Shown here in pieces: positions 8,395 through 63,001 of a stretch of DNA of 64,000 nucleotides. Origin of the DNA: a virus. A program made the translations under genes and the position numbers. Positions within the stretch are counted from its first letter, which is position 1. Every line of letters begins with the position of its first letter. The DNA lies in the IMG/VR virus record IMGVR_UViG_3300035660_000005, positions 1-64,000 of that record. One strand, given 5' to 3'. The notes beneath the pieces were generated by a model. It saw only the letters and a list, made by a program, of their open reading frames with translations, did no database searches and was not told the origin of the DNA.

Positions 8395-9803
8395 AGCTTT
8401 ACCACCTCCACCGCGGCTCCTACAGACTTGTACGCTCTGGCACGCTCGCGTGCTTGCCGGAACATCGTTCTGGAATGTGTGTCCCAAAGATCGATGACCT
8501 CGAGTCGATCCTTGCCCTCGGCCGTGCGGCTACCGCGACCGATGCGCTGCACGACAACATGCTGAGCGCGACCGCCACCGGCGATCACCAGACCAGCGAG
8601 TTCTGGCACGTCAACCCCCTGGTCGAAGATTACACTTGCAATTATAATGTGCTCACCGCCATCGCGCAACCTTTGCAGCACGTCCTTGCGCGTAGCTACC
8701 TCCGAGGAGCCGTGCACAAACGGTGCGCCTAGCGCTTGAGCCAGGCGAGCGCCGTGCTCGATCATGTTGACAAGTACCAACGTTGGGCGCCCGTCGCGCG
8801 CCAAGGCTTCGGCTGCGGCTACGATGGCCGCGTTGCGTGCATCGTTGCGGACTATCGCGCTACGGTAGAGAGCCGCGTAGTGTGGGAAGTGCCCATCAGC
8901 GACGTCGAACATCACCTCCGGCCATGAGGCCAGTGGTGTGGCGACGTTCCACTGAAGCATCGTAACGAACGCCGGCACACTGACGCCCCTCTGCACTGCC
9001 TCCTGCGGAGACAGCTCCATGATGACGGGGCCTGTAGCGCCGATGAGTTGGAGCCGCGCACGATCGTCGCCCTGCTTGAACGGTGTGGCCGACCACCCAA
9101 AGCGGTAATAGGCCGGTACGGACATCACGACGGGCATGTACGTTTTTGCCGGAAGGGAATGGCACTCGTCGTCATGCACGACGTCGAAACTCCGCAGTAC
9201 GTAGCGAGCCTCCTGTTCGTCCGTTCGTAACCATGATCGTAGTGACTGAAGCATGGCGATTGTCACATCGCCCAACTGCCGGCTTCCTGCCCCGAAGACA
9301 CCGATACGCACACCCGGCAGACGCTCCTTGAACCGCTTGGCAGTCTGCACAGCGAGGTCACGACTGTTGACCAGGACAAGCGTCCGCAGTCCAAGTGCTG
9401 CCGTGATGGCCATCATCATCTCGGTCTTGCCCGTGCCGGTTGCCATATGGAAGACTCCACGCTCGTGCTCAAGAGCGGCAGCAACCGCCGTCTCCTGGTA
9501 ATCTCGCAGCGCGACGGCCAACTTCCATGGGGTGCCCGGTTCTGGTTTGGAGCGGTCATAAACGTACTCGAAGACGATGTCCTCCGCAGTGAGTGCTGCG
9601 GCCACATGCTCCACCAGGCCGGCCGGGAACGCTCCGCGTCGAGACAGTAGAGTGCGCCGACCATCCCACTTGCCTGCCTTGTAAGCTCGCGTGAACCGGA
9701 AACCCTTGTCCCAGTAGCTGAGCGCCTCTCGAACGGTACGCAGTGCAGCGGGTGGACCCTCAACGCCCGCCAGCGTGTTCGTGACGTAGAGCCTCGTGCT
9801 CAC
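8391..9803 (-). CDS. uvsW-like: UvsW-like superfamily 2 helicase
   Basis: A 470-residue helicase. Residues 1-90 resemble the UvsW N-terminal domain (YVTNTLAG ... WDGRRTLLS ... FPAGLVEHV). Then come an RDYQ Q-motif-like element, Walker A MATGTGKTE, a DDECH box, SATPF and a C-terminal arginine-finger motif QRIGRGSR. UvsW-type enzymes unwind branched DNA and R-loops and switch replication from origin to recombination mode. Start: GTG at 9803, overlapping the polymerase stop (GTGA) with an AGGTGAGG ribosome site. The 30 residues upstream in the same frame lie inside the polymerase gene and are left out. Confidence 0.85.
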   Translation of the reverse strand: MSTRLYVTNTLAGVEGPPAALRTVREALSYWDKGFRFTRAYKAGKWDGRRTLLSRRGAFPAGLVEHVAAALTAEDIVFEYVYDRSKPEPGTPWKLAVALRDYQETAVAAALEHERGVFHMATGTGKTEMMMAITAALGLRTLVLVNSRDLAVQTAKRFKERLPGVRIGVFGAGSRQLGDVTIAMLQSLRSWLRTDEQEARYVLRSFDVVHDDECHSLPAKTYMPVVMSVPAYYRFGWSATPFKQGDDRARLQLIGATGPVIMELSPQEAVQRGVSVPAFVTMLQWNVATPLASWPEVMFDVADGHFPHYAALYRSAIVRNDARNAAIVAAAEALARDGRPTLVLVNMIEHGARLAQALGAPFVHGSSEVATRKDVLQRLRDGGEHIIIASVIFDQGVDVPELAGLVIAGGGRAQHVVVQRIGRGSRTAEGKDRLEVIDLWDTHSRTMFRQARERARAYKSVGAAVEVVKL

Positions 9804-12739
9804 CGCCTCACCTTCTGCGTCCTGCCGACGTACTCGGTAGACATGGACTCGCGCACGCGCGTCACGAACGTGCCAGCCCTCAGCTCGCTCCACCCGCGCT
9901 CGAGATCGTCGAGTGTGAGCTCTTTGTCTTCACCCCAGCGCTCGCGCACCTTGACGGCTACGGGCAAGTACCACCCATCCGGCCACCTGAGTCCGCCCCA
10001 GTATCGATTCGTCGCGAAGGGGATGATCAGCTTCGGTACACTATACATGACGTCGTGGATGAGCCGCTTGCAGGCGTCGATGTGCTTCGTAGGCACGACG
10101 GAGATCAACGAGTCATGCAGGCTGATGGCGAGGTGGGCTCCATACTCGTGGTGAAACACTCGTGCTGGGTAGTCCCCAAAGCGCTCTCTCAGCAGTCGAT
10201 GTATGAGGATGCTGTCACCGTACTCCTCGACGCCCTGCCAGTCGTTCAACCCGATCGTTGCGAGGTGCAGAATGTCCGCCGCCGAGCCCTGTGGGAACAT
10301 GCTGATCGCCTCTCTACGGAAGTGTCCTTGCTCCCAGTTCGGACGTCCGTAGACGAGCCCGTCTATCTTCCATTTCCGGAAGTGGCGCACTCGGTCGAAG
10401 ACGTTGGCCGCGATGCGGCGCTCGTTAAGGAGCGCTCTGACCTGGTCGTGATATTCTCTGATCGCCGGATAGACCTTGAAGTAGTTGTCAATCTCCGCCT
10501 TGGCCTCGTCAAGGGGAATACCGAACGCCGCAGCAACGGAGCCCGGCCCACGACCGAAGTTCACACCATGGGTGAAGGTCTTGGCCTTCATTCTGTGGTC
10601 GCCAGTAACCTCCTCAAGTGGCACGTGGAGAACACTCACGGCTGCGGCCGCATGCATGTCCAAGCGCTTATGCCCTGTCAATGCAAGGTGCTCCTCGAGC
10701 TCGTCTGGGATCTCGAAGTACAACGAACCGCAGGTCGCGCAGGACTGCAACTGCTGTATGTAGAGATCGCAGCCGGCCACGTACGCCTCGATCCTGTTCT
10801 CAATCTGGCTGTAGTCCGCATCAACGAGAAGGTGATCAGCGGGTGCGCGAATCATGTTGCGCACGACCGGACTACCGGGTGGGTTCTGCACGTTCGGTCT
10901 GGAGCTCGAAAGGCGCCCACTCTCAGTGCCTGGGATGTGGAAGGTTGGATGCAGGCGACCGTTGGGTTTGACGTATCGCAGCCACGCCTTCGCCTTGTCG
11001 GTTCCGTCACCAATGAATGTCGAGCGCAGCTTGAACACCTGGCTCAGCTCGAGTAGCGTCGTCAAGACCTCTCTTTGCAAGGACGTGAGCTTCGGCGTCT
11101 CGAGTAGGTCCAGTATCGAGCCCTTGGACGACTCACCCTTCGCGGAACCCTGTGAGCCGGCCTTCTTCGTCTCCTCCGCGCTGGGCCTCTTCAAGCCCAG
11201 TCCGATCTTCACGCCCTCCTCACCAATGTGTTCGTACAGCAACCGCTTCAGCTGTGTGTGACTGTTGTAGTTTGTGGGCGGCCTAACGCCACCCCGAACG
11301 AGCACCTCGTCGAGGTGCTCCCTGAGCTCTCTCACCTTCTTGTCTATTTGTGTCCCGAGAGCTCGCATGTACTCGACGTCCATTGGGATGCCTTGGCTTG
11401 ATGCGTACGTCAGGGCGCGCGACAGCGGCATAGCGATCTCATGGAGCAGCCACTCGCCTGCTGGGTTTATCCTGCGCAGCTTCTCGAGTGTGATGTCCTT
11501 GAGGCGACGCTCGCAGTCGGCGTCGGTTGCACTGTACGTCCAGAGTGTCTCCTCAGGGGCACACGCGTAGGAGTGCTTGATCGTCGGTGCCCAGCGCTTG
11601 AGTTCTACATCGTACTTGGGGAAGATACCGTAGACCTCACTCAAGTGTTCGAGGTCGTGAGACCGCTTCTGTTCGTGGTAGAGATGATGTGAGAGCATCG
11701 TGTCGTACTCGAAGCGGCGGACACGGATGTCAAGCTGCTCACGGCAGAAGGCTATGTCGAACGCACCGTTCTGTGCGGACTTCGGCACATCACTCTCGAG
11801 GATCTCCTTGAGTACGGCCTTCACGCACACCAGCGCCTTCGGAGACCACAGTGTGCGCGGCGTACCGCGCCTCGTCCCTACGGTCTCGAGCACTTCTTCG
11901 AGCGAGAGACCGTCGCATTCGATGTAGCGGCCGACCAGCGGTATGACGTACCCTTCACCTGGCACCGTTGAGAAACTAGCGCACAGCACCTGGTTCTCAT
12001 ACGGATCCAAGCCCTCGGTTTCGAGGTCGAATGTGATCTCTTCTGCACTGAGTAGGTAGTCCCGCAACTCGTCGAGCTGTACCAGCGCTTCGGTCTCGGT
12101 GCACTCCGGACCGGGCACGACTATGCGGTAGTCGCCAAACGCCTCGAACTCGCCGGCCTCTTCCTTTGTCGGTTCCGGTAGCGCGTTGGGTTGCAACGCA
12201 TCGTACGCCCGTTGCAGGTCAGCACGGAACTGCTCCTCGTACTGATCCTCATGTTGCATCACTGCACTTGGGTGGTACGTGACGACAGTTTTGACTCCAA
12301 ACTGGTCGCACTTGAACGGCTTGCCGCGCGCCTGTCCGACGGGCATCTCACAGTGCACGGCATCGAGCGCGGAACCACCAAGTGCTACGATGAGCTTCGG
12401 GTTGAGTTGCTCAACGTCCTCCTTGAGGTACTGACGGCAGATCCCGATCTGCTCCGTCGTCGGAGGTGCCTGTGTGCCGCCGCGCTTCGGTGGCCAGCAA
12501 CGGCAGGCGTTCGCGTATGCCACACGGGCTGGGTCGAAGCCGACTTGGCGCAGTCCGTCCCTGAGGTACTGACCGGCTCGTCCTACGAATGGACGTCGTC
12601 GCTGGTCCTCGTCCCTACCGGGTGCCGCACCAACAAACAGTACATCAGCACCCTCAGGCAGTGTCGAGTTGACAACTGCGCTGCGGGGCTCGCGGGACTT
12701 CCAGAGTGGACAGAGCCTGCAATCGGGTGGTGCTGGCAT
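9800..12739 (-). CDS. polA-like: Uracil-DNA glycosylase / 3'-5' exonuclease / DNA polymerase A fusion
   Basis: A 979-residue fusion. Residues 1-180 are a family 4-type uracil-DNA glycosylase with GAAPGRDED, PFVGRAG, HPSA and four cysteines placed as iron-sulphur ligands (C7, C10, C79 or C81, C101). From about 230 there is a proofreading exonuclease (FDLETEGL). From about 450 there is a polymerase A core: motif A DADYSQIE near 640, motif B RMKAKTFTHGVNFG near 720, motif C HDSLISVVP near 876. In motif B, His replaces the usual Phe/Tyr that discriminates sugars. A Cys2-His2 element sits between motifs A and B. ATG follows directly on the sigma-like gene stop. This is the phage replicative polymerase. 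Confidence 0.92.
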   Translation of the reverse strand: MPAPPDCRLCPLWKSREPRSAVVNSTLPEGADVLFVGAAPGRDEDQRRRPFVGRAGQYLRDGLRQVGFDPARVAYANACRCWPPKRGGTQAPPTTEQIGICRQYLKEDVEQLNPKLIVALGGSALDAVHCEMPVGQARGKPFKCDQFGVKTVVTYHPSAVMQHEDQYEEQFRADLQRAYDALQPNALPEPTKEEAGEFEAFGDYRIVVPGPECTETEALVQLDELRDYLLSAEEITFDLETEGLDPYENQVLCASFSTVPGEGYVIPLVGRYIECDGLSLEEVLETVGTRRGTPRTLWSPKALVCVKAVLKEILESDVPKSAQNGAFDIAFCREQLDIRVRRFEYDTMLSHHLYHEQKRSHDLEHLSEVYGIFPKYDVELKRWAPTIKHSYACAPEETLWTYSATDADCERRLKDITLEKLRRINPAGEWLLHEIAMPLSRALTYASSQGIPMDVEYMRALGTQIDKKVRELREHLDEVLVRGGVRPPTNYNSHTQLKRLLYEHIGEEGVKIGLGLKRPSAEETKKAGSQGSAKGESSKGSILDLLETPKLTSLQREVLTTLLELSQVFKLRSTFIGDGTDKAKAWLRYVKPNGRLHPTFHIPGTESGRLSSSRPNVQNPPGSPVVRNMIRAPADHLLVDADYSQIENRIEAYVAGCDLYIQQLQSCATCGSLYFEIPDELEEHLALTGHKRLDMHAAAAVSVLHVPLEEVTGDHRMKAKTFTHGVNFGRGPGSVAAAFGIPLDEAKAEIDNYFKVYPAIREYHDQVRALLNERRIAANVFDRVRHFRKWKIDGLVYGRPNWEQGHFRREAISMFPQGSAADILHLATIGLNDWQGVEEYGDSILIHRLLRERFGDYPARVFHHEYGAHLAISLHDSLISVVPTKHIDACKRLIHDVMYSVPKLIIPFATNRYWGGLRWPDGWYLPVAVKVRERWGEDKELTLDDLERGWSELRAGTFVTRVRESMSTEYVGRTQKVRR

Positions 12740-35140: not shown

Positions 35141-36115
35141 TTACGGCTCGACGCTGACGTTGTAAGCGATGGCCGTCGCCTTGGCGACTGCGATCCGCGC
35201 GTCGATACGCGTGGTCACGATGAAGCTCGTGACGCCCTCGCGGGGGTCACGGAACTGCTCCATCTTGATGGCCCGACGGAAGCCCGCGTAGAGGTTCATG
35301 CGGTGGGTAAGCAGAACGAACGACTTGTCCGGACTGCCTGGGATCACCTTCATGAGCGGGACACTCACGATGGAGATCCCCTGGTAGGTGAGCGGGCGGG
35401 TGCCGGATAGGATCTCGTCACCCAGAGCAGTGCCGCGCTCAGCGAGCTGGTCGCGGTACTTCTCCTCAAGGATGGTCGGGACGTAGAAGCGCATGTTCGC
35501 GAGGTCGCGCTTGTACATCGGCGGCAGGCTCTTCAGAAGCGTGCCGAAGACGGTCTGGTAGTCCTGGCCGAGAACGGTGACGTCAGCGGCGTTGTTGCCC
35601 GTCTGCTCGCCACAGCGTGCCAGCCAGCCATCCAGCAGGTTGAGGTAGCCGGTGGTGTCGTCGGTGTTGTCGACGAAGGAGTTGTCCATGTCACCGCAGA
35701 TCATGAGCTCCTCGACGTCGCGACCGACACCCTCCGCCACCATCGAGATGATGGTGTCGGCGAAGCCAGCGCGCTCCACCTGGTCCTCAAGGACCTCGTC
35801 GGTGACTGGGACCTCACCGCGAAGCAGCACGGTGGACATCTCGATGACGCCGGTTGTTGGCTTCACACGATTGGCCGTGTCCAGCCGCTCACCCTCGGTG
35901 CCTGCACGCATGATGCGTGCGGAGAAGTCGATTGTGCTCTCCTGCCACTTACTGGCGTTGTTCATGACGGTGCGAACGTCGGGGAGCATCTTCTGCGGCT
36001 TGATCGCCATCCGCAGGAACGTCTGCACCTGCTCAATGGTGAGCGGAGCCTCGCCTGCGCCGCCGAAGTCGGCAAGCGCCAGCGTGGCCTTGCGAAGCAG
36101 CTCTTCGTTTGTCAT
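35141..36115 (-). CDS. Major capsid protein
   Basis: A 324-residue HK97-fold-type capsid protein. It has an N-terminal helical arm (MTNEELLRKATLALADFGGA), an E-loop/spine region (SARIMRAGTEGERLDTANRV), then RGEVPVTDEVLEDQVERAGF, and a C-terminal domain with VLLTHRMNLYAGFRRAIKME and TTRIDARIAVAKATAIAYNV. The length and motif order match siphovirus capsid proteins. Scaffold-like genes lie upstream and hairpins downstream, as for a strongly expressed gene. Confidence 0.8.
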   Translation of the reverse strand: MTNEELLRKATLALADFGGAGEAPLTIEQVQTFLRMAIKPQKMLPDVRTVMNNASKWQESTIDFSARIMRAGTEGERLDTANRVKPTTGVIEMSTVLLRGEVPVTDEVLEDQVERAGFADTIISMVAEGVGRDVEELMICGDMDNSFVDNTDDTTGYLNLLDGWLARCGEQTGNNAADVTVLGQDYQTVFGTLLKSLPPMYKRDLANMRFYVPTILEEKYRDQLAERGTALGDEILSGTRPLTYQGISIVSVPLMKVIPGSPDKSFVLLTHRMNLYAGFRRAIKMEQFRDPREGVTSFIVTTRIDARIAVAKATAIAYNVSVEP

Positions 36116-43480: not shown

Positions 43481-43743
43481 CCGGCTACGACTTCGAAGAC
43501 CGCGGCAAGACGCTCTACTTCCCAGGCTCACACTGGGGCAAGCACAACGAGTTGGCTGTGCATGGGCGTAAGGACGACCTCGTTGTCGTGAAGGTGCCAG
43601 CACTCACTGCCTACATCAGTCGCGGCACCGGGTCACACTACTGCCCAGCCGAGTTCCTAGTACTGCAAAAGCGAGGAGCAAGCGCGATGCCAGGCTACAC
43701 GCACGCAGAGCTTCTCATCGCAATTCCGCTGAGGGTGGTATGA
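43477..43743 (+). CDS. Small protein, unknown function
   Basis: An 88-residue product (ATGA overlap with the membrane protein gene and with the next gene). It begins MTGYDFEDRGKTLYFPGSHW and is beta-rich with a short basic turn. No family recognised; it is unlike the Cys-rich proteins of the same operon. Confidence 0.5.
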   Translation: MTGYDFEDRGKTLYFPGSHWGKHNELAVHGRKDDLVVVKVPALTAYISRGTGSHYCPAEFLVLQKRGASAMPGYTHAELLIAIPLRVV

Positions 43744-44393
43744 AGTACGACTACGGCTTCCCGCTCATGGTCGACATCGTGCCGGCCACGAAGCCACCTG
43801 AGAAGGACGGCTTCTGGATCCAGCACTACGAGATCACCGAAGAGGAGGTGCACCGACAGCACTGCCGCCTCGACTGGACAATGCGTGGTCTCGAGCCTGG
43901 CACCTACTGCGTGCTACACCAGCGGCGTGATGGACACGACAGTCAGTGGATGTCCGACACTTGGCTCGAACGGTACACCAACGCGGACTTCCTCAAGAAG
44001 GCAACTGGCCACGTCCTTGTCATCGGACTGGGCATTGGCTTGTTACCTGTGGCACTCTGCCGCAAGGTGGATGTGGAGTCTGTCACTGTGCTGGAGATCG
44101 AGCCGCAGGTAATCGCTTTGGTGGAGCCGCACATCCGGCACCCGAAGCTCCGCCCCGTTGTCCAAGGCGACGCCTTCGAGCCACCACCGGCACTGCTCAG
44201 TGTTCGGTACTTCGACGCCGTCTACGCGGACATCTGGGCCGACATCTGTTCCGATAACTGGGAGACAATGAAGCCGTTGCTAGCCCTCTACCGGAAGGCC
44301 GCTAAGAAGGGCGCGCTGGTGACGGCGTGGCTCAAGGATTATATCCAAGCCGAACACAAAGCAACACGGCAACGGTACGGAGGGTACTGGTGA
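43740..44393 (+). CDS. SAM-dependent methyltransferase, spermidine-synthase-like fold
   Basis: A 217-residue protein with a class I methyltransferase core: HVLVIGLGIGLLPVAL (SAM loop), VTVLEIEPQVIALVE (acidic end of strand 2), then VVQGDAF and YFDAVYADIWAD. This order is that of the spermidine synthase-like branch. No DNA-methylase DPPY motif is seen, so the target may be a small molecule or protein. The N-terminal region before the SAM loop is unusually long. Substrate unknown. Confidence 0.65.
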   Translation: MKYDYGFPLMVDIVPATKPPEKDGFWIQHYEITEEEVHRQHCRLDWTMRGLEPGTYCVLHQRRDGHDSQWMSDTWLERYTNADFLKKATGHVLVIGLGIGLLPVALCRKVDVESVTVLEIEPQVIALVEPHIRHPKLRPVVQGDAFEPPPALLSVRYFDAVYADIWADICSDNWETMKPLLALYRKAAKKGALVTAWLKDYIQAEHKATRQRYGGYW

Positions 44394-45497: not shown

Positions 45498-45799
45498 AGG
45501 AAGAGTCGCACCTCGTCTACATCGTTTGGCGCGACAGCGTCGGCGCACCTCACTACGTGGGCTGCGATTGCGAAGACATACCGGCGACTATCCTGCTAGA
45601 GGGCGTGGCCTGGATCGTGAACGAAACCGAACAGGATCTGGTCGTCGCGGCCTACCGTTCGAACGACGGCGGCTGGATGGATGTAGTCGCGATTCCACGA
45701 TGCGCCATCGAGAAGATCTACCGCATCCAATGGCCCCAACCGGTGCTGCAGGTCGAAGCGATTAAGCTGGATGCAGACTTCCTCGGGGCACCGGACTAG
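45494..45799 (+). CDS. Small beta-rich protein, last gene of the rightward operon
   Basis: A 101-residue product starting MKEESHLVYIVWRDSVGAPH and continuing YVGCDCEDI, with alternating strands (DLVVAAYRSNDGGWMDVVAI) like a small barrel. Its stop converges with the stop of the 1425-residue gene on the other strand (4-bp overlap), ending the operon without an obvious terminator. No family recognised. Confidence 0.5.
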   Translation: MKEESHLVYIVWRDSVGAPHYVGCDCEDIPATILLEGVAWIVNETEQDLVVAAYRSNDGGWMDVVAIPRCAIEKIYRIQWPQPVLQVEAIKLDADFLGAPD

Positions 45800-48700
45800 C
45801 GGGTAGTCACGACTGGCTTGCGCTTCGCGAAGCCACCCATACTGAGCCCGCGAATCTGCCCGCTCTTCACGAGACGCCAGCCGGCGTCGTTCCAGAGTAC
45901 GCCCATCCACACGCTGTTGGCGGGAATGGTCGTCTCCTTCGACTTACCGTCAGGAAGTGTGAGCTTTGTCGTGACCTCCCAAGGCCACGCGACGATGTCG
46001 ACCCACTCACCAACGGGGATGATCCCTGCAGCGCCGTGCTGAAGATAGATGCGTCGGTCGCCGGCCTGCACGTAACCCCACTGTCCCTTCTGGAGCTCGT
46101 CTGCCATGATGAACTCGTCGTGGGCGTCGAGCTCTGGGTCACGCGGCATGTTGGTAGCCTTGTAGCAGACACCGAACGTGTACTGCTCCTCAGCGGCCTT
46201 CTCGAGCACGGTATACTCGAACGGCTGGGTGTCGCCACTCTTGGCGACCTCCGCCTGGTCGGTGTGGCTCGCACCGGCAGCAAGCGCGAACATCTGTCCG
46301 TCCAGGCCCACCTCTCCGAACAGGAGCTCGCTCTCGTTCCAGTTGCGCAACAGGTCGTCGTCCACGTTGACAAGTACCAGCTTCTTGACGCCGGCAGACT
46401 TCAGGTCACGCGACGCATCAAGCGCGGACGGCAGTGCCCTGCCGCCTGGTAGGTACTGCGTGTCCTTCCAGCCGTGCGCTCCGGCGAAGACAAGGTCAGC
46501 GTCCTCCACCATGTAGCGGTCGGGGCCAAGTGGTCCCCAGATGATGGTGGTGCGCTTCTCTTCCTTCTCGTCATAGACTGCGATCTCGAAGCAGACCGCT
46601 CCCTCTTCGCCAGCACAGCGGCCATAAGCACCCCATGGGCGCACGTACACACGGTCTTGTGAGTAGCCTGCATCGTAGCCAGTGCACAGCTCCACGCCGA
46701 GTGTCTCTGCCTGCTCCTTGATGTCCGCCAGATGCGTGTTGTACGGGTTGGTGATGAACCACGCGTCCACTGCCTTCGGCAGCTTCTCGAGTAATCCTGG
46801 TCCGCCGTCGAACACGAACGACTTGTTCGCCACCTGAACAAGCAGTCCGTACGGGGAGATGCGCGACTCTACCTGCTCGCCGCCGGTGCCGAGTAGTGTC
46901 ACCTTGATGTCGGCCGCCTTGACCAGACGTGGTCCGTTCTCGTCCAGTACCAAGTCGAACAACGGCGTCGCTTCTGGGTCGCCACGTCGGTCGAACTTCA
47001 CGGCGGGCACAACCCCTGCCGAGCCTGCGATCAGTGTCGCGATGCCCTGAGCCAGACTTGGACTCCAGTACTCGGGTTCGCGGTCAGCCGCCTCGCGCAC
47101 TACCAACTCGATCGTCTTCGAGCCGGCCATCGGCTTGTACGAGATGAACGCTGGGATGACAGTCGGCACGCCCTTGATCTGCCAGACCCACTTGCCGTGC
47201 ACCTGTCGGTACAGTGTGTTCCCGCCACCGTGGTGCTTCGAAACGGTGTCGGACTTGACGATGTTGGGGTGCTCCTCGACCCACTTCTTGGCGCTGGTGA
47301 GTGTCCACTCGTCGTCCGTCGGGAACCTGAGCGCCTGGACTGTGGTGGTCTTCTCCCCCTTGAGCTTCCCAATCACGGCGAATACTCGAGGCTTGGTAGC
47401 CTGGATGGTGATGCGTCGGAACGAGTCCTGCTCGAAGTCACCAGGCTCTCGCACCCTATGTCGAATCTCGTTCTCCGTCGTCTCCCAAGCCTTTGCCAGC
47501 ATCTCCTCGGTCTCCTTCTTTACGACGCCGGCAAGCACCTTCCACTGATCAGCGTCCTCCACTTCCAGTGCCGCCAACAGCGCGTCGCCACTCTTTGGGA
47601 TGTCGATGAAGTACGGACCATGGGCACCATCACTCCACACCAAGTGTGGTTGACGCTTTCCGCGTAGCTCCTTGATGACGTCGGCGAGCTTGTGCTCCTC
47701 GGCGTAGGGCGTGTCGGACTCAGGCTTGCTGACGAGCCACACACGCCGACCACCCATCGGTGCGAACGTGATCTGGTAACGACCCTTCACCTTCGAGCCG
47801 CTCAGGAACACCTCGAACATGTGCTCACGCGCCACACCCAGTTTGTACGTGCCTCTGTCGTACACAAAGAACTTGGCCCATGCCTGTGACGTGGCGCCGA
47901 CCTCCTCCGGCTCCGAGATTGCCGGCTTGCCGACGCCAACGTTCAGCCACTCCGTCGGCTGTGCTAGCTTCCACGAGCCCTGAAGGCTATCGTCTGTCGG
48001 CAGGTTCTGGAGACGGTCGCCACCGGCAGCCTTCACCTCAGACGCCTTGCCCAGGAATGTTGTGAAGCCCCACAGTGCGTCCTCGCCCTGCAAGCGGAGG
48101 TCGCCGTGCACCGAGTGGTCGGTGTCGAGCAGGGTAGACTCACTGGTGCCCTTCGCTTCATCCTCAGTCAGGCCACGCCAGTGGTGATGGTAGACGAAGC
48201 GTCCACGACCCGAGCGTGGCAGTGCGTCGAACCAGCTCTTCTTCCAGTAGGCAGCTACCTCGCCGGCACGGCCCTCTTCCTCGTGTGGGCCTGCCTTCGC
48301 GAGTGAGAACATCAAGCTCTGCGGCACGAACTCGAAGTCGACTACCTTCATCCCTCTGCGCCTTGAGCGTGTAGCGACGCCTGGTACCGACCACAACTCG
48401 GCGTTCGGGTCGCAGTCATTCGACGCCATATGGTAGTCGTCGCAACGCTCGCAGAGGATGATTGTGCTCTTCTGCGTCGGCTCCATCTTCTCCTCGCGGA
48501 GTGCGCCGTAGCGGCGAGCCAGATCGATTGCTTGCTGCACCGTGTACGCTGGTCGGGAGCGATCAGGTCCCTGCGGTGTCGGCTTGCCCCACGTGAGCGT
48601 TCCGTCGCTCAGTAGGATCATCTCCTCCACCGTCACGTTGAGTGTGTCGCCCTCGCCCGCCAACTGTGTCGGCGAGACGAACGTCTTGCCCAGTTTCTGG

Positions 48701-50073
48701 TAGGGCTTGCCGTCGATGTCCACGACACGACCCTTGGGGATTCCCTCGCTCGGTTCGCGCAGTGCACAGTCGTAAGTGTAGCCGTTGGCCACCTTGTTCA
48801 CGCTCAGGACGCGTGCCTTGATCTCCACCGTGCGCTTCGTCTTCGCGTAGTCGTTGGTGGAGCCAAAGCTGTACGGCATGTTCGGGTCTCGCGTCACCAC
48901 ACCCTCGATCGGGAGGTCGCGCCCGCCAGGCCCACCGTAGTTGAGCAGCCGGTTAGCCATCGACTTCAGTGACGCCTCGCTCTTCGCTTCCTGCTGTGGC
49001 AGTGCGACGAAGCGCGCTCCGAGCGTCGAGGCTGCTCGCTTGATCAATGCGTATCGTTCACTGAACGGCTGCTCGTGCACATCGGCCCCGTCGAAGTAGA
49101 CCATGTCGTACAAGAACACGACCGGCGTGGCGCCCTCGAACTTGTTGGCGAGCAACGAGATCAGCTCTGGACGCGCCACGTACTTGCCACCCGAGACCGC
49201 CTGGAGCTCGCCCTCGACCACCATGGACGTCTTGCACTTGCGTAGGGTGTCCATCAGTGAGGGCACGTCGTACTCCTGCTTGGCGTCCTCGGAGTAGATC
49301 ATCGCACGACCGCCAGCACAGTGGATCAGCGCACGTAGTCCGTCCACCTTCGGTGACACCAACACAGTGCCCTGCTTGTCCACAACCTTCGAGGCCCAGT
49401 CGTCCCACAACTCCTTGACGGAGACGAAGTCGGTGTAGTACTTCATGGACGGCTTCTGTGCGGTGTACTTGTCGAAGGGGTTGATGCCGGCGCTCTTGAA
49501 CCGAGGAGCCCTGTTCTCTGGCCCGAACCGAGCACGACGCTTCTCGAGGCTCGCCGCCTTGACGAGCTTCGCCTCGCCAGTCGTAGTGCGCAGCACAAGG
49601 TCGAACACCGGCACGTACTGTCCCTCGTGTGGACCCTGCGGACTGAACAGTAGGTGCAACTCCTTGCCGGTCTTGTCAGGATCGAAGAAGCGACGCAGCA
49701 GTAGCATGAGCGACTCACGGTAGTAGTTTGGCACATCCCCATCTTCGCGGATGAGGATATCCAGGTCGTGGGCAGCAGCCAGTCCCTCGCGCGCAGCGCT
49801 GCCGACCACGCTCACGTAGTCGGGAACCACGACGACGTCGCTGGCCGCCTGCTTCGGGAGCTTCGCCTGATCCAGCCCAGGGTGCACGTTGTGTTCCATG
49901 CCACGCTTCTCCATCTCGGCAACGATGAAGCTGTGGGCATTGACGATGGTCTCGATGGACGCACCGTTCTCCTTGGTGTTGGCGAACCACTGGTGCGTGC
50001 GGCGATGCAGCGAGAGTAGCTCGTCATCCGGTGCCTTCTTCAGGGCAGCCGGGGTGATCTCTTCGAGGGTCAT
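45796..50073 (-). CDS. Multidomain fusion: nucleotidyltransferase, LigD-type ligase and phosphoesterase, MBL-like, XkdF-type protease
   Basis: A 1425-residue protein. Residues 80-110 are nucleotidyltransferase-like (GSAAREGLAAAHDLDILI). From 235 to about 425 there is an ATP-dependent ligase core: adenylation motif PKVDG with K242, VVEGEL, IEGVV, and KRTVEIKA. At 541-554 there is a CxxC-type cluster. At 625-790 there is a LigD-phosphoesterase pattern (FVYHHHW, VHGDLRLQ, YDRGTYKL, VKGRYQITF, VWLVSKPE). At 885-935 there is a module often seen before phage proteases (FRRITIQ, AKKWVEEH). At 1057-1275 there is a metallo-beta-lactamase-like fold lacking HxHxDH. At 1297-1414 there is an XkdF-like protease domain ending GLSMGG with S1411. 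It lies in the packaging operon after a MuF-like gene. Confidence 0.75.
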   Translation of the reverse strand: MTLEEITPAALKKAPDDELLSLHRRTHQWFANTKENGASIETIVNAHSFIVAEMEKRGMEHNVHPGLDQAKLPKQAASDVVVVPDYVSVVGSAAREGLAAAHDLDILIREDGDVPNYYRESLMLLLRRFFDPDKTGKELHLLFSPQGPHEGQYVPVFDLVLRTTTGEAKLVKAASLEKRRARFGPENRAPRFKSAGINPFDKYTAQKPSMKYYTDFVSVKELWDDWASKVVDKQGTVLVSPKVDGLRALIHCAGGRAMIYSEDAKQEYDVPSLMDTLRKCKTSMVVEGELQAVSGGKYVARPELISLLANKFEGATPVVFLYDMVYFDGADVHEQPFSERYALIKRAASTLGARFVALPQQEAKSEASLKSMANRLLNYGGPGGRDLPIEGVVTRDPNMPYSFGSTNDYAKTKRTVEIKARVLSVNKVANGYTYDCALREPSEGIPKGRVVDIDGKPYQKLGKTFVSPTQLAGEGDTLNVTVEEMILLSDGTLTWGKPTPQGPDRSRPAYTVQQAIDLARRYGALREEKMEPTQKSTIILCERCDDYHMASNDCDPNAELWSVPGVATRSRRRGMKVVDFEFVPQSLMFSLAKAGPHEEEGRAGEVAAYWKKSWFDALPRSGRGRFVYHHHWRGLTEDEAKGTSESTLLDTDHSVHGDLRLQGEDALWGFTTFLGKASEVKAAGGDRLQNLPTDDSLQGSWKLAQPTEWLNVGVGKPAISEPEEVGATSQAWAKFFVYDRGTYKLGVAREHMFEVFLSGSKVKGRYQITFAPMGGRRVWLVSKPESDTPYAEEHKLADVIKELRGKRQPHLVWSDGAHGPYFIDIPKSGDALLAALEVEDADQWKVLAGVVKKETEEMLAKAWETTENEIRHRVREPGDFEQDSFRRITIQATKPRVFAVIGKLKGEKTTTVQALRFPTDDEWTLTSAKKWVEEHPNIVKSDTVSKHHGGGNTLYRQVHGKWVWQIKGVPTVIPAFISYKPMAGSKTIELVVREAADREPEYWSPSLAQGIATLIAGSAGVVPAVKFDRRGDPEATPLFDLVLDENGPRLVKAADIKVTLLGTGGEQVESRISPYGLLVQVANKSFVFDGGPGLLEKLPKAVDAWFITNPYNTHLADIKEQAETLGVELCTGYDAGYSQDRVYVRPWGAYGRCAGEEGAVCFEIAVYDEKEEKRTTIIWGPLGPDRYMVEDADLVFAGAHGWKDTQYLPGGRALPSALDASRDLKSAGVKKLVLVNVDDDLLRNWNESELLFGEVGLDGQMFALAAGASHTDQAEVAKSGDTQPFEYTVLEKAAEEQYTFGVCYKATNMPRDPELDAHDEFIMADELQKGQWGYVQAGDRRIYLQHGAAGIIPVGEWVDIVAWPWEVTTKLTLPDGKSKETTIPANSVWMGVLWNDAGWRLVKSGQIRGLSMGGFAKRKPVVTTR

Positions 50074-50090
50074 GTCACTATCCTATCACA

Positions 50091-51020
50091 TTAGACCGGA
50101 AAGCTCTCCATGGGTGGAAGCCAGCCCTTCGTGTTGGCCCCGATGTCGCAACGGCAGTGGGGGTGCAGTGGCGGGTACTCGCCACCCCACTCGAAGGAGT
50201 TGCCAATCTTGACCCAGCCCTGACCAGCAGCTTCGATACAGTAGTCGCACACCCGAGAGATGGTCGCTGCCGGCGAGCCGGCGGCCGTCAACCAGCGCCG
50301 CTCCTTGATGCCGTTACGCACCATCGTCTCGTGCGCTGTGTTGCCGTAGACGCGGGCCGTCTCTGTACGAGCTACCGTCTCCGCCCACTTGCGTCCAGCC
50401 TCGGGCATCGCGTGCAAGATCTCGGACGTTACTTCGGGCACGGTCTTCGGACGTGCTGGGTTCGCCGCCTCCAACGCGATGCGCGCCAACTCCTCAGCCC
50501 ACGTGCCGGCCGAGTCCTCCAGGTAGCCGGTGACCTGCCCGGACAGTTCTGGGTACAACTCGTGGAACATCAGCTCGGTGTCTGTCCACCTGTAGCCACC
50601 ACCCAGTTGCTTCTCCACGAGCTCGGCCCAAGGTGGCTTCGTTTTCATCCCCAACTGCCGACGGACCGAGCGCTCACCCAGCTCGGCGGTGCTCGCCAAC
50701 TCGGACATCAGTTGACGTGCCGGCTTGTCGAGCTTGAGCTTCTGCTCGATGTGCTTGGCCAGCGCTGCCTTTGCCTTCGCCGGTGCGCGTGCCTCGTCAG
50801 GGAACTTCTCCCAGAGGGCGCGAGCGATGCGCGCCAGCTCTGCTGACGAGACCTGCTCGGCGAGGCCGCCGTAGTACTCCTTCGCCGCTCGTCTTACCTT
50901 GGCCTCAGCCGCGAGCCGCTGCTGGTAGCGTGTCGCCCATTGTCCGCTCGGACTGGCCGCCAACCAGACCGCCTCCAGACCACGGTGCAGTCGCTTGACT
51001 GTGTCCCAGCCTACCTTCAT
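50091..51020 (-). CDS. Minor head protein, SPP1 gp7 / Mu F-like
   Basis: A 309-residue protein. The C-terminal region has ETARVYGNTAHETMVRNGIK, a CDYCIEAAGQGW cluster and YPPLHPHCRC, the hallmark pattern of the Mu gpF/SPP1 gp7 C-terminal domain, which has a Cys/His site. These proteins associate with the portal and may enter the host with DNA. The start is the ATG at 51020; the listed TTG-coded residue is not needed. The gene lies upstream of the giant fusion, after portal and fibre-like genes. Confidence 0.75.
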   Translation of the reverse strand: MKVGWDTVKRLHRGLEAVWLAASPSGQWATRYQQRLAAEAKVRRAAKEYYGGLAEQVSSAELARIARALWEKFPDEARAPAKAKAALAKHIEQKLKLDKPARQLMSELASTAELGERSVRRQLGMKTKPPWAELVEKQLGGGYRWTDTELMFHELYPELSGQVTGYLEDSAGTWAEELARIALEAANPARPKTVPEVTSEILHAMPEAGRKWAETVARTETARVYGNTAHETMVRNGIKERRWLTAAGSPAATISRVCDYCIEAAGQGWVKIGNSFEWGGEYPPLHPHCRCDIGANTKGWLPPMESFPV

Positions 51021-51078
51021 CAATCGGTCCCCAACGTGTACCTGGAAGAAGTCTCTGCAAGTCTCCGCGAAGCTGGCG

Positions 51079-56534: not shown

Positions 56535-56674
56535 GCTGGTACGGCCTCCCGCTCCCTCACTGGAACCTCGGGCGGCGCCTCTTGCGGCACGTTAGGCACG
56601 CGACGCACGACATAAGGGTTACCGACCCGCCTAGGCTCCTCGGTTGTCTTCCTGACTGGGGCTCTCGTTCCCAC
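56531..56674 (-). CDS. 47-residue ORF overlapping the portal end, tentative
   Basis: A GTG at 56674 with GGGAGAG upstream opens a frame of 47 codons that overlaps the portal 3' end by 44 bases and ends in ATGA with the membrane gene. The product is charged and Pro/Val rich (TEEPRRVGNPYVVRRVPNVP). It fills a gap of 96 bases that would otherwise be empty. Evidence is limited to spacing and overlaps. Confidence 0.4.
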   Translation of the reverse strand: MGTRAPVRKTTEEPRRVGNPYVVRRVPNVPQEAPPEVPVREREAVPA

Positions 56675-58199
56675 CTGGAATCTCTCCCGTCTCCATGACC
56701 TCGCGGACGACCTCGTCGACCTGCTCCAGTCGAGTGAGCACAGCGTCCTGTGTGCGCTGCATCGCAGCCATCATGTCGACACTCTGAGCCATCGCCATCG
56801 CCATCCCTGCGCCAGCAGCTCCCTTCGACTGGAGGTACTCGGCGAGTGTCACGTTCATGTCGTCACGGGCCGGCAGACCGAGCTTCTCGCGACCCTCGTT
56901 CAGCGTGACCATGTTAGTGCGCACAAGGTTCACGGCGTTGGCGATGTCCGCCGTCTCGTCGCTGACGTCAGGCGCCTCGAACTCTACGCGCCACGCCACG
57001 GTCTCCTCATTGATCCGTCGTGCTCGAGCGTACTCGGTACGGATGAACCGTCCAAGTCGGTCGCAAAGAATGGACTGCGCCGGAGTCACGACGGCGTTCT
57101 TGTAGATGCGGTTGATGGCCACGCTGACGTTGCCACCAAGCATCCCGCGCTGGACGGTACCCAATCTGTCAGGAGGCATACGATGTGCCTCGAGGATTCG
57201 TGCGTCGGTGACGTCCATGAGCTTGGTGAAGTGCATGTCGTTCTGTACGGCCGTCAGTCGTTCGACCTTGAACTGCGCGGTGCCCGACAACGGCACCATG
57301 AGGTTACGGTGCGGGTCCTTGTGCTGGACCTTGAGCTGCTCTTCGAACTCGTCCATGAACGTCTCGATCTCTGCGTCCTTGCCGGTCAGTCCCGACACGA
57401 CGAAGATGTAGCGAGGCTCTCTCGCGTTGGAGAAGAACTTGATGTTATAGTCTCTCGCTGCGATTGCGAGCGTAATGTAGCCCACGCCCGAGATGTAGCC
57501 TGGAATCCCGTACCACGAATTGCGTCGACTCGTCTTCACGAACACCAGCATCTCGTTGGCGAGCTTGTCGAAGCCTGTGCCTGGGGGCGCTGTGCGACCG
57601 TTGCTTGACAGTACTGCCACGTCACGCAACGGCTGTCCAGTGGACACGTCCACTCCCCACCGCTTGAACCAGACCTGCCGCGTGTTGCGGATCTGTACGT
57701 AGAACATACCGTTCCGGTGTGCACGGACTGTGTGTGCCGGCACGTGGTACAGTCGTTGCACCACGCCATTGATGTCGCGTGCTGCCTCGAACATGCCCCA
57801 CCCGACGGTCTCGTAGTCAAGCCAGACGGCGTTCAACAGTTCGATGAACGTCTGCTGCTCGGTGATCTCGTCCAGCCAGTTGTAGATGTCGGCTTCCTGT
57901 TCAGGAGGCGCGCTCTCGTGTTCGGGCACCAGCTTCGGCCCATTGGCGATCACATCCATGGCCTTCTGTTCTAGCGAGGCCGAGTGGGGAGGGTGGGACT
58001 CTGCAAGGAGCACAAGCTGCTCCATGGAGTAGGGTGGCCTCTGAATTGCGACACCGTAGCTGGCGATCTGCGAGAACGGATCCTCTAGCAACTGCTTGGA
58101 GGGGAACTCGGACAGGCGCTCCAACTCTTCGCCGCCGTAGCCTCCGATGATGCGTGCCTTGAAGATCCTGCTACCCTGGGCCTCTGTTCGTGCGACCAT
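56631..58199 (-). CDS. Portal protein
   Basis: A 522-residue protein with portal features: FGVAIQRPP-like SYGVAIQRPPYSMEQL, a stem region with NWLDEITEQQTFIELLNAVW, YNIKFFSNAREPRYIFVVSG, and SGTAQFKVERLT with AHRMPPDRLG, typical of SPP1/PBSX-type portals. The C-terminal portion is helical and acidic. ATG at 58199 has a GGAGGGCG site. It forms the dodecameric DNA gate at the capsid vertex and follows terminase in the operon. Confidence 0.85.
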   Translation of the reverse strand: MVARTEAQGSRIFKARIIGGYGGEELERLSEFPSKQLLEDPFSQIASYGVAIQRPPYSMEQLVLLAESHPPHSASLEQKAMDVIANGPKLVPEHESAPPEQEADIYNWLDEITEQQTFIELLNAVWLDYETVGWGMFEAARDINGVVQRLYHVPAHTVRAHRNGMFYVQIRNTRQVWFKRWGVDVSTGQPLRDVAVLSSNGRTAPPGTGFDKLANEMLVFVKTSRRNSWYGIPGYISGVGYITLAIAARDYNIKFFSNAREPRYIFVVSGLTGKDAEIETFMDEFEEQLKVQHKDPHRNLMVPLSGTAQFKVERLTAVQNDMHFTKLMDVTDARILEAHRMPPDRLGTVQRGMLGGNVSVAINRIYKNAVVTPAQSILCDRLGRFIRTEYARARRINEETVAWRVEFEAPDVSDETADIANAVNLVRTNMVTLNEGREKLGLPARDDMNVTLAEYLQSKGAAGAGMAMAMAQSVDMMAAMQRTQDAVLTRLEQVDEVVREVMETGEIPGGNESPSQEDNRGA

Positions 58200-58547: not shown

Positions 58548-59957
58548 CTACAAACCCCGAGGCCTGTGTAGTCGACTGATCGTCCGCTTACCTCCAGCGA
58601 TCTGCCACGCGAGAGCTAGTGTGCATATCTCATCCGGTGGGTGACCTGACCCGTAGAGGTCGTCCGTTGTGACCGCTCGATGTAGCTCCGTCAGTGAGTT
58701 CAACGCTGGCCATTCGACCTCGCCGTTGTCCACCGCCGTCTCGTAGTCGAGGTACAGCTTCACCTTCGACGCCGGCGTCATGATGTAGGGGGTCACCTGT
58801 GAGATGGGAATGTCAAGGTAGGTGTTGATTACGTCGCCGATGCCCGTGGCGTCGTGGATGGCGTGAGCGTGATACTCCTTGCCCCACTCGTTGTAGAGCT
58901 TCACCACTTTCGGCCATGGCCACCTGAAGCAACGCACCCAACGCACGAGACGTGGCGGCGTAACGTCGTACCGCACGACAGCCACGACCGAGAGGTCCAC
59001 CTTGCGTGCCCAGTCCGCAGCCACCACGTAGTCACCGCCGTCCACCGGATCCTCGAACAGACACACCTGGTTGAGGCCGTCGTCGACAGGAGCGCCTGAG
59101 AACATCGCCTCAAGGGCTTCCCTCGCGAACAGCATTCCACCCTCGTCTGGGGCCTCGAGGTCGTACTCGGTACGCCACATCCGACCGGTCACCTGGATGC
59201 GTTTGGAGGCGATGTTCTCGGGCAGAAGCCACGACCCAGGGTTCTTCGGGTTACACAACGTTTCCTTATAGCACCAGCGCCGGACGGGCCATCCCTTCTC
59301 AGCGGCGCGCTTGAGTAGCTCCGTCATCGTTCCGGCCTCGTGGTGGTGCGTGGACGCAAGGATGGTCTGTGCCGGTCTTCGCGGGTCGGTGACCATCGTC
59401 TGGCCCATCAGGGCGTCGATGATCTCGACGTCGCATTCTTCCGCCTCATCGATGCGTAGACGCTGAGGGTGAGGACCACGTGCGGCTCTCGATGACGCTG
59501 TGAGGGCTTGCATGGTGTTGCCCATGAGTGTGCGCGTCCACGTACGCCGAGGCTCGTTGGCCAAGAGCCAATGCGGCGCCGTGACAGCCTCGAGCTTGCC
59601 GTCGACCGTCTCCTCTGCGCTATGGCCCCAAGCCTTCTCAGCAGCTTCATGTGCACGCCTGGACTGTTCGCCCGAGCCGCCCGCCAACACGACGTCGAAG
59701 CCTGAGATGAGCTCGATGAGTGACAAGCCGGCCAAGGCCCACGTCTTGCCGCCAAAGCCTCTGGATGCAATCCAGATGATGATTGGCGACTTAGCGAAGT
59801 AGGCCTCGATGATGGCGTCGGCAGGACTCGTGTGGTCGGGGCAGCATGCCTTACGGGGATAGCGTAGACCGAAGTAGAGCTCTAGCTGGGCTAGCAACTC
59901 GTGCGGAGTTTGGGGGGCTCGGTACACGACGGGCAGGTTGTCGTCGTTCGACGTCAC
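58548..59957 (-). CDS. terL: Terminase large subunit
   Basis: A 469-residue packaging motor. The ATPase has Walker A ASRGFGGK at about 64-71, Walker B LRIDEAEE at 167-174, and STHHHE as coupling motif. The nuclease has GDYVVAADWARKVDLSVVAV (first Asp), a central HDATGIGDVINT-type Asp motif, and a C-terminal Asp region with PDEICTLALAWQ. The start is GTG at 59957, which lies where transcription from the promoter at 59964-59992 should begin, so the message may be leaderless. No ribosome site precedes it. The C-terminal 15 residues are basic. Confidence 0.88.
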   Translation of the reverse strand: MTSNDDNLPVVYRAPQTPHELLAQLELYFGLRYPRKACCPDHTSPADAIIEAYFAKSPIIIWIASRGFGGKTWALAGLSLIELISGFDVVLAGGSGEQSRRAHEAAEKAWGHSAEETVDGKLEAVTAPHWLLANEPRRTWTRTLMGNTMQALTASSRAARGPHPQRLRIDEAEECDVEIIDALMGQTMVTDPRRPAQTILASTHHHEAGTMTELLKRAAEKGWPVRRWCYKETLCNPKNPGSWLLPENIASKRIQVTGRMWRTEYDLEAPDEGGMLFAREALEAMFSGAPVDDGLNQVCLFEDPVDGGDYVVAADWARKVDLSVVAVVRYDVTPPRLVRWVRCFRWPWPKVVKLYNEWGKEYHAHAIHDATGIGDVINTYLDIPISQVTPYIMTPASKVKLYLDYETAVDNGEVEWPALNSLTELHRAVTTDDLYGSGHPPDEICTLALAWQIAGGKRTISRLHRPRGL

Positions 59958-62109: not shown

Positions 62110-62289
62110 TCAGTCCTGCTTCGGGTGGCGAATCGCGTGCAGTTCGAGCAGCTGGGCCTCAGCGCGGATCTTGCGCGCCTTGGCCTGGATCCACGCTACG
62201 GTGGCACCGATCAGTCCCACAGCGTTCAGGAACACCAGGGTCGCTGCGCAGGCCATAAGCACCTGGAACGGTAGGAAGTCATACCACAT
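62110..62289 (-). CDS. Small membrane protein, helical tail
   Basis: A 59-residue ORF overlapping the ClpP-like stop by 11 bp (ATG at 62289, ribosome site GAGGTGACGG). It has one transmembrane segment (FQVLMACAATLVFLNAVGLI) followed by a basic helix (QAKARKIRAEAQLLELHAIR). Suggests a membrane-anchored regulator or holin accessory. No family recognised. Confidence 0.55.
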   Translation of the reverse strand: MWYDFLPFQVLMACAATLVFLNAVGLIGATVAWIQAKARKIRAEAQLLELHAIRHPKQD

Positions 62290-63001
62290 CCGTCACCTCG
62301 CTTTGGAGTGCTGCGAGCTCAGTAAGCAGCTCAGGCGACGGTGGCTCGTAGCCCTCGTCACCGGGCTCAAGGAAGCGCTTGTGCCGACCGAGGTAGTACA
62401 GGTCGTCCGAGGTCACGATGCCATCAGCAAGACCGTACCGGACAGACTCCTCCGCGGACAACCAGAGCATGCGGTCGATGTCCGCCAACAACTCGTCGCG
62501 AGAGCGCTTCACGCCGCACTCGATGTAGCAGTCCACCATGGCGTCGCGGATCTTGTTCATCTCCTGCTGGCACAGCTCCAGGTCCCTCGAGTCCACGGAG
62601 AACTCCTGTGCGTTGATCCTCGGTAGGTGCAGCATCAGTCGGGCATGCGGCAGTAGTAAGCGGCGTCGACCAGCCGCGAAGATCAGCGAGGCCATGGACG
62701 CGCACGACATGCCGATGGTGGTCACTGGCGCCGGCGATGCACGAATCGTGTCGTACAGAGTCATGCCGACGTCGATGGACCCACCCTCACTGGCGACGAA
62801 CAGCACGATGGGATCGCTGCTCTCCAACGCAAGCGCAAGCAGGCTCTCGAACACTCGGGTCGGCGAGTACATGTCCTGCCGTGCCGTGTAGCTTAGCATA
62901 GGACCCACAAGGAACAAGGCACGTCGGCTCGTGCCGACGATCTCGGCTCCCCAGGCAAGCTCGTTGTCGCGGATTCTGTCGGGACGTGGTCTCACAAACA
63001 T
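62279..63001 (-). CDS. clpP-like: ClpP-like serine protease
   Basis: A 240-residue ClpP-fold protein (S14 type). The catalytic Ser is S102 in GMSCASMASLIFAAG, His125 lies in ARLMLHLP, and the Asp comes with the family DIDRMLWLSAEE-like end. An SEGGSIDVG oxyanion-loop-like Gly motif precedes the active Ser. Phage ClpP-like proteins usually act as prohead proteases, but here it is far from the capsid gene and beside the nucleotide genes. The ATG at 63001 has an AAGGAG site. Confidence 0.75.
   Translation of the reverse strand: MFVRPRPDRIRDNELAWGAEIVGTSRRALFLVGPMLSYTARQDMYSPTRVFESLLALALESSDPIVLFVASEGGSIDVGMTLYDTIRASPAPVTTIGMSCASMASLIFAAGRRRLLLPHARLMLHLPRINAQEFSVDSRDLELCQQEMNKIRDAMVDCYIECGVKRSRDELLADIDRMLWLSAEESVRYGLADGIVTSDDLYYLGRHKRFLEPGDEGYEPPSPELLTELAALQSEVTDVV

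Follow-up and report, generated by a model that had tools for sequence, protein, structure and literature searches.

A viral polyprotein joining predicted DNA end-processing and ligase domains to an XkdF-type capsid protease

The window analysed here is a stretch of 64,000 bases out of the 78,297 bases of the IMG/VR virus record IMGVR_UViG_3300035660_000005. Its minus strand contains, at 45796-50073, a single unbroken frame of 1425 codons, and the start codon is supported because the first 70 residues are conserved in relatives. A first-pass annotation had read this frame as a giant fusion of a nucleotidyltransferase (NTase), a ligase, a LigD-type phosphoesterase (PE), a metallo-beta-lactamase (MBL)-like fold and an XkdF protease. 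The giant gene proved to be real, and the NTase, ligase, PE and XkdF calls were borne out by Pfam, by family profiles and by a structural model of the PE. The features of the gene, from the N to the C terminus of the protein, are as follows:

45796..50073, minus strand: whole polyprotein gene, 1425 amino acids (open reading frame; N terminus kept in relatives)
49864..50073, minus strand: N-terminal helical domain, residues 1-70 (family profile match)
49552..49830, minus strand: minimal Pol-beta-type nucleotidyltransferase, residues 82-174, VVGS-x10-DLDILIR (family alignment, PF01909)
48616..49431, minus strand: ATP-dependent ligase, residues 215-486 (PF01068, family alignment)
47590..48240, minus strand: LigD-type 3'-phosphoesterase, residues 612-828 (family profile, AF2 model, Foldseek)
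47269..47424, minus strand: short FRR...RFPTDDEWT...KKW module, residues 884-935 (read from the sequence)
46909..47151, minus strand: possible degenerate second NTase-like copy, residues 975-1055 (read from the sequence)
46219..46908, minus strand: region earlier called MBL-like, residues 1056-1285, no metal motif (negative tests)
45808..46206, minus strand: XkdF / Peptidase_S78_2 protease, residues 1290-1422 (PF14550, conserved residues)

Direct scans of viral contigs with the whole query or with its counterpart from ANMV-1, an archaeal virus of methane-seep sediment that has not been cultured, retrieved no relatives, and two two-sequence alignments used as search input returned distant XkdF matches or nothing. 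The alignment of the query with the ANMV-1 protein exposed the motif SVHGDL, and the family was reached via a DNA pattern for the PE motif VHGD[LF]RL[EQ] plus a downstream Trp. Seven viral contigs matched this pattern, and all seven carried family members (7/7); VHGD[LF]RL[EQ] itself occurs once in the window versus 0 of 100 shuffles. A profile built from nine PEs then retrieved 37 loci in viral contigs and three in genomes. Two of these three are contigs from the bin of Dehalococcoides sp. JdFR-54; the third, assigned by binning to Aenigmatarchaeota, encodes the same protein as the viral loci L013 and L047. The mapped relatives comprise 40 non-identical proteins, including those of Dehalococcoides-bin and metagenomic phages and of the archaeal virus ANMV-1, on contigs that are all metagenomic or from MAGs and in many cases fragments.

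According to profiles built in this analysis, the PE is present in all 40 proteins, XkdF in 29, the NTase and the ligase in 28 each, and a uracil-DNA glycosylase (UDG) and a small methyltransferase in 14 each. Rarer modules are Dam-like methyltransferases (three members, L009, L013 and L014), real MBL domains (two, L009 and L044), a 2H domain (one, L024) and an Acb1-like anti-CBASS domain that lies within the polyprotein of L022 (6827-11026; PF23474, E = 2.6e-22; PDB Acb1, E = 4.6e-9) and is also matched by the Pam3 portal protein, known from a solved virion structure. The order NTase-(methyltransferase)-ligase-(UDG)-PE-XkdF is nearly fixed, with a single exception among the pairs tested (L029, UDG ahead of the ligase). 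The arrangement pointed out in the first-pass annotation, DNA end-processing and joining enzymes fused to a capsid-type protease, was seen again in about 40 relatives. That it was undescribed also held up: literature searches for the domain combination, with most subscription papers outside their reach, gave no description. The gene, which comes from a tailed virus, thus belongs to a family, not described before, whose members occur in phages of bacteria and in viruses of archaea. Since the bacterial phages have the module order in common with ANMV-1, the unit would seem to be old or to have been transferred repeatedly.

Pairwise dN/dS ratios, for which many pairs were saturated or undefined in dS, were 0.02 to 0.15 in PE, ligase, methyltransferase, UDG and most XkdF comparisons where dS was estimable; one XkdF pair with a dS of 0.046 gave 0.33. 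The enzyme domains are under purifying selection in the sampled pairs. Protease and cargo appear to have been exchanged between relatives by recombination, because the identities of PE and XkdF disagree: L038 and L040 share 94% of the PE and 46% of XkdF, and L034 and L040 share 96% of XkdF with PEs that are 84% alike.

The N-terminal helical domain was detected by profile in 24 of the 40 family proteins, mostly directly ahead of the NTase, and it also opens a cargo-less XkdF protein, that of L005. Taken alone, the NTase of the query was below threshold, with PF01909 as the sole match (E = 0.016 to 0.039), but the call is supported by the relatives, of which 10 of 27 matched PF01909 (best E = 2.7e-6; the L042 member over the cut-off). 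In the family alignment the G, both Asp and the R are invariant (27/27), so that the G[GS]-x-D-x-D signature of the Pol-beta superfamily goes together with a family match, the query by itself reaching only E = 0.016. The NTase profile found no related chain in the PDB. Residues 975-1055 end in PLFDLVL...RLVKAA, as the first NTase copy does; a profile match there was not significant (E = 1.5).

The ligase of the query was over the Pfam cut-off (PF01068, E = 1.2e-13, residues 229-413), in agreement with the ligase core proposed earlier, and it has the motif I lysine of ATP-dependent nucleotidyltransferases and ligases together with motifs III, IV and V (KVDG with K242, EGE at 287-289, EGVV at 390-393 and KTK at 411-413). 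K242, E390-G391 and K411, the lysine of motif I, the Glu-Gly of motif IV and the lysine of motif V, are invariant in 28 of 28 members. From its domain, the enzyme would be expected to seal strand ends. In about half of the family ligases KxNG replaces KxDG in motif I, and most of these have Asp where motif III otherwise has Glu; this subgroup includes L008, L010, L022 and L026, and its substrate may differ.

The PE of the query alone was also sub-threshold, LigD_N being its sole match (E = 0.02), and the call was settled by the family profile and by an AlphaFold (AF2) model examined with Foldseek. The family profile retrieved only LigD PEs from the PDB at E < 0.01 (3p43, E = 4.3e-6). The AF2 model, predicted from an alignment from which the ANMV-1 row was left out, had a pLDDT of 93, and Foldseek matched it to seven LigD-PE crystal structures with a probability of 1.00 and to no other fold before noise set in; the LigD-PE beta-barrel was therefore recovered, and both the profile search and the structure prediction of this segment support a LigD PE. 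Among the proteins of BFVD, only one viral protein matched the model well. H631, H656, D658 and R660 are kept in 38 to 40 of the 40 members (H656 and D658 in 40/40, R660 in 39/40) and align with His42, His48, Asp50 and Arg52 of Pseudomonas aeruginosa LigD, the His-His-Asp metal site of that enzyme plus an Arg. LigD His84 of the DHP motif is not kept, the aligned residue being Gln in L013 and Q705 in the query, a replacement that could alter PE activity. The substrates of the LigD PEs known so far are 3' ends of DNA. Within the LigD PEs, the family forms a clade in which one of the catalytic histidines has been exchanged.

XkdF was confirmed in the query by PF14550 (E = 2.9e-6, residues 1289-1418, 27.8 bits against a cut-off of 24), with H1346 and S1411 present; the His is kept in 28 and the Ser in 29 of 29 family members. 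No other XkdF domain of the family diverges as far as that of the query (E = 1e-9, versus 1e-23 to 1e-52 in the others). Since His and Ser are kept, self-cleavage into separate enzymes by the protein's own protease, as proposed in the first-pass annotation, is plausible on the sequence. XkdF is absent from at least five members (ANMV-1, L009, L013, L014 and L036), and therefore the protease is not obligatory. Residues 884-935 resemble, by eye, part of an XkdF protein without cargo, that of L006. The MBL-like fold assigned to residues 1056-1285 had to be abandoned: a Pfam search of residues 936-1285 gave no recognised domain, pairwise comparison of residues 1056-1285 with genuine MBL domains from relatives showed no similarity, the HxHxDH metal motif is absent from about 1056-1285 (the sequence there is TNPYNTHLAD), and the model of the MBL/second-NTase region had a pLDDT of 34 and was not used for fold searches. 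A profile, A7, matched MBL enzymes of the PDB; these are the same enzymes that its L044 row finds alone, and the match was discarded as evidence on the query.

The gene lies in a head-gene region. Upstream of the fusion follow, all on the minus strand, a MuF-like gene, unassigned genes, the portal and the terminase; the proximity to portal and MuF-like genes noted earlier is thus correct, MuF adjoining the fusion and portal and terminase lying in the same head-gene region. Genes assigned in the window include:

50091..51023, minus strand: MuF-like minor head protein, immediately upstream of the fusion (PF04233, E = 1.5e-6, just under the cut-off; phrog_4728, E = 1.1e-13)
56631..58199, minus strand: portal protein (PF04860, E = 4.8e-18)
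58548..59957, minus strand: terminase large subunit (phrog_2, E = 1.5e-11)
62279..63001, minus strand: ClpP-type (S14) head maturation protease, a separate gene (phrog_94, E = 4.2e-27; PF00574, E = 4.7e-34)
35141..36115, minus strand: major capsid protein of the XkdG kind (phrog_1623, E = 1.6e-68; matches annotated major capsid proteins and XkdG)
43740-44393, plus strand: methyltransferase-like gene near the polyprotein (phrog_15480, E = 2.4e-21)
9800-12739, minus strand: DNA polymerase (a PHROG polymerase family) whose N terminus bears a UDG domain (12215-12658)

The UDG on the DNA polymerase may explain why the polyprotein of this virus has none. No ClpP-type head protease was found in the 14 other records searched. 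In L040, terminase, portal, MuF, fusion, one further gene and capsid follow one another; the portal directly precedes the fusion in ANMV-1 and also lies ahead of it in L009 and L047.

LigD, the ligase of bacterial NHEJ, combines PE, POL and LIG domains and works with Ku. The family likewise has LIG and, by fold, PE in one chain, and its NTase could stand in for the polymerase activity, but it belongs to the Pol-beta superfamily, and no primase-type POL domain was matched by Pfam in the whole query protein at E ≤ 1. Moreover, the family is fused to a phage protease, its PE has Gln for His84, and Ku was not found in 30 records, many of them fragments (Ku of the host is possible). Because no POL domain was detected and no Ku was found in these records, the polyprotein, whose domains should couple the healing of ends to their sealing as LigD does, is not LigD, and a literal LigD/NHEJ reading is not supported.

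Other parallels come from phage heads. XkdF / Peptidase_S78_2 capsid-maturation proteases (PBSX XkdF, psiM2 ORF12) have the same C-terminal domain as the query, and a location between the MuF and capsid genes in relatives and an XkdG-type major capsid protein are common to both; by profile and residues, the query is an XkdF protein. The ordinary XkdF proteins checked have about 155 to 390 amino acids and no DNA-repair cargo, whereas the query has more than 1000 residues ahead of the protease. The 2H-XkdF fusions of Arthrobacter and Microbacterium phages (phrog_14859, "RNA ligase") carry, like the query, an enzyme ahead of XkdF beside portal and MuF, but this is a single 2H phosphoesterase without the NTase, ligase, PE and UDG of the family. 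The ANMV-1 "ATP-dependent DNA ligase" (KP703175, 3200-5800) has a collinear NTase-ligase-PE that is about 25% identical to the query; unlike the query, it has no detectable XkdF domain, and it is annotated as a ligase only.

Polyvalent proteins of phages and conjugative elements are large, combine several enzymes, have their genes near those of portal and terminase and are thought to be packaged and injected (PMC5512222). NTase, methyltransferase and 2H domains as well as protease-driven processing belong to this theme (PMC5512222). The query has both several effector domains in one chain and the portal-terminase context. XkdF, LigD and glycosylases are absent from the main text of that paper, where ligases appear only as enzymes with which its 2H domains do not pair (PMC5512222). 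DarB and DdrB of P1 are packaged in the head, DdrB after processing (PMC5512222), and Nudix domains are fused to MuF, portal and capsid serine peptidase, such fused enzymes being taken as packaged (PMC9503650). Judged by its domains, the polyprotein fits the polyvalent-protein concept of head-fused effectors, and its packaging is predicted.

Virus particles cannot repair DNA outside the cell. The reading we prefer, at even chances, is a head-tethered, protease-releasable cargo for DNA-end and base repair that is probably packaged and delivered with the genome. The C-terminal XkdF domain and the head-gene synteny would bring the polyprotein into the assembling capsid; during maturation the protease would most likely cut the linkers and free the enzymes inside the head, and these would exit with the DNA and mend nicks and damaged ends in the genome as it arrives, ahead of repair or defence by the host. 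From the domains present, the PE would trim blocked 3' ends and the ligase would seal them, accompanied by the Pol-beta-type NTase; in relatives with a UDG, deaminated bases of the incoming genome would be repaired as well. That the polyprotein is a functional DNA end-processing cargo is likely, and its physical presence in the virion is somewhat more likely than not. Release by its own protease is an evenly balanced proposition, and action on the incoming genome falls a little short of that. Procapsid entry, release, packaging and action on the incoming genome are inferred steps, which P1 DarB/DdrB and the head-fused enzymes support by analogy. The first-pass annotation had suggested repair or circularisation of genome ends after entry. 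Of the two, repair suits the cargo better, its targets being nicks, 3' ends that are blocked and, for 14 of the relatives, uracil; nothing specific was found for circularisation.

The same cargo could act in the producing cell, XkdF freeing the enzymes during assembly and nicks, flaps and 3' ends of new DNA being healed before or during packaging. This would agree with the late-gene position among head genes, and a ligase and a PE suit nicked replication products, but it gives no reason for fusing repair enzymes to a head protease, and the precedents of head-fused enzymes point to packaging (PMC5512222, PMC9503650); we consider it unlikely. Less likely again is a counter-defence effector whose domains act on nucleotide signals (Acb1-like, 2H, MBL and PE) or shield DNA from restriction (Dam-like methyltransferases), and not in break repair. 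The Acb1-like, 2H, Dam-like and MBL modules of L022, L024, L009/L013/L014 and L009/L044 would suit such a role, but they occur in few members, the common set being ligase, NTase, PE and often UDG, and the query has no recognised counter-defence module.

An RNA (tRNA) repair kit, in which the ligase and the PE, together with the NTase, methyltransferase and 2H domains, restore RNA that anticodon nucleases of the host have cleaved, would account for KxNG in place of KxDG in about half of the ligases, for the 2H domains in the family and for the L035 protein, for which an RNA ligase model is a further match (E = 9.5e-5). It is improbable, in that the UDG (14 members) and the Dam-like methyltransferases act on DNA, known LigD PEs work on DNA 3' ends, and the query ligase has KVDG with a DNA ligase family as its best model. 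Very improbable is a domesticated structural protein, with decaying enzyme remnants serving as spacers or scaffold without catalysis: the divergent XkdF of the query, the lack of a recognised domain in residues 936-1285 and Gln for LigD His84 would be expected of it, but catalytic residues are near-invariant in 28 to 40 sequences and dN/dS is low in the enzyme domains.

If delivery with the genome is correct, the family would represent, as a tentative generalisation, a self-releasing DNA-repair machine borne in virions: some tailed viruses of bacteria and archaea, including hydrothermal and seep lineages, would package, in one head-protease polyprotein, the activities of a glycosylase, a 3'-end healing enzyme, a nucleotide-adding enzyme and a ligase, and damage to the genome could be put right on entry, independently of host repair. 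Counter-defence enzymes that are packaged have been described (the P1 Dar proteins), and we found no description of a packaged set for base and break repair. The family offers a concrete, testable case of packaged repair, on a protease platform whose cargo has seemingly been swapped in nature.

Some smaller observations concern related loci. Two XkdF-only proteins of 155 to 200 amino acids (L053:2444-2908 and L055:2552-3151) are annotated as DNA methyltransferase, which seems to be an error carried over from another annotation. As these two annotated examples are XkdF only, the "DNA methyltransferase" label that XkdF proteins receive from PHROG (phrog_1530) was not counted as evidence of a methyltransferase fusion. 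In L051 a PE is fused to a possible, weakly scored MuF end, and L044 has two PE copies behind its MBL domain. L015:9887-11965, from a Dehalococcoides bin, apparently carries three LigD-PE-like copies in tandem, and a possible zinc ribbon comes after them.
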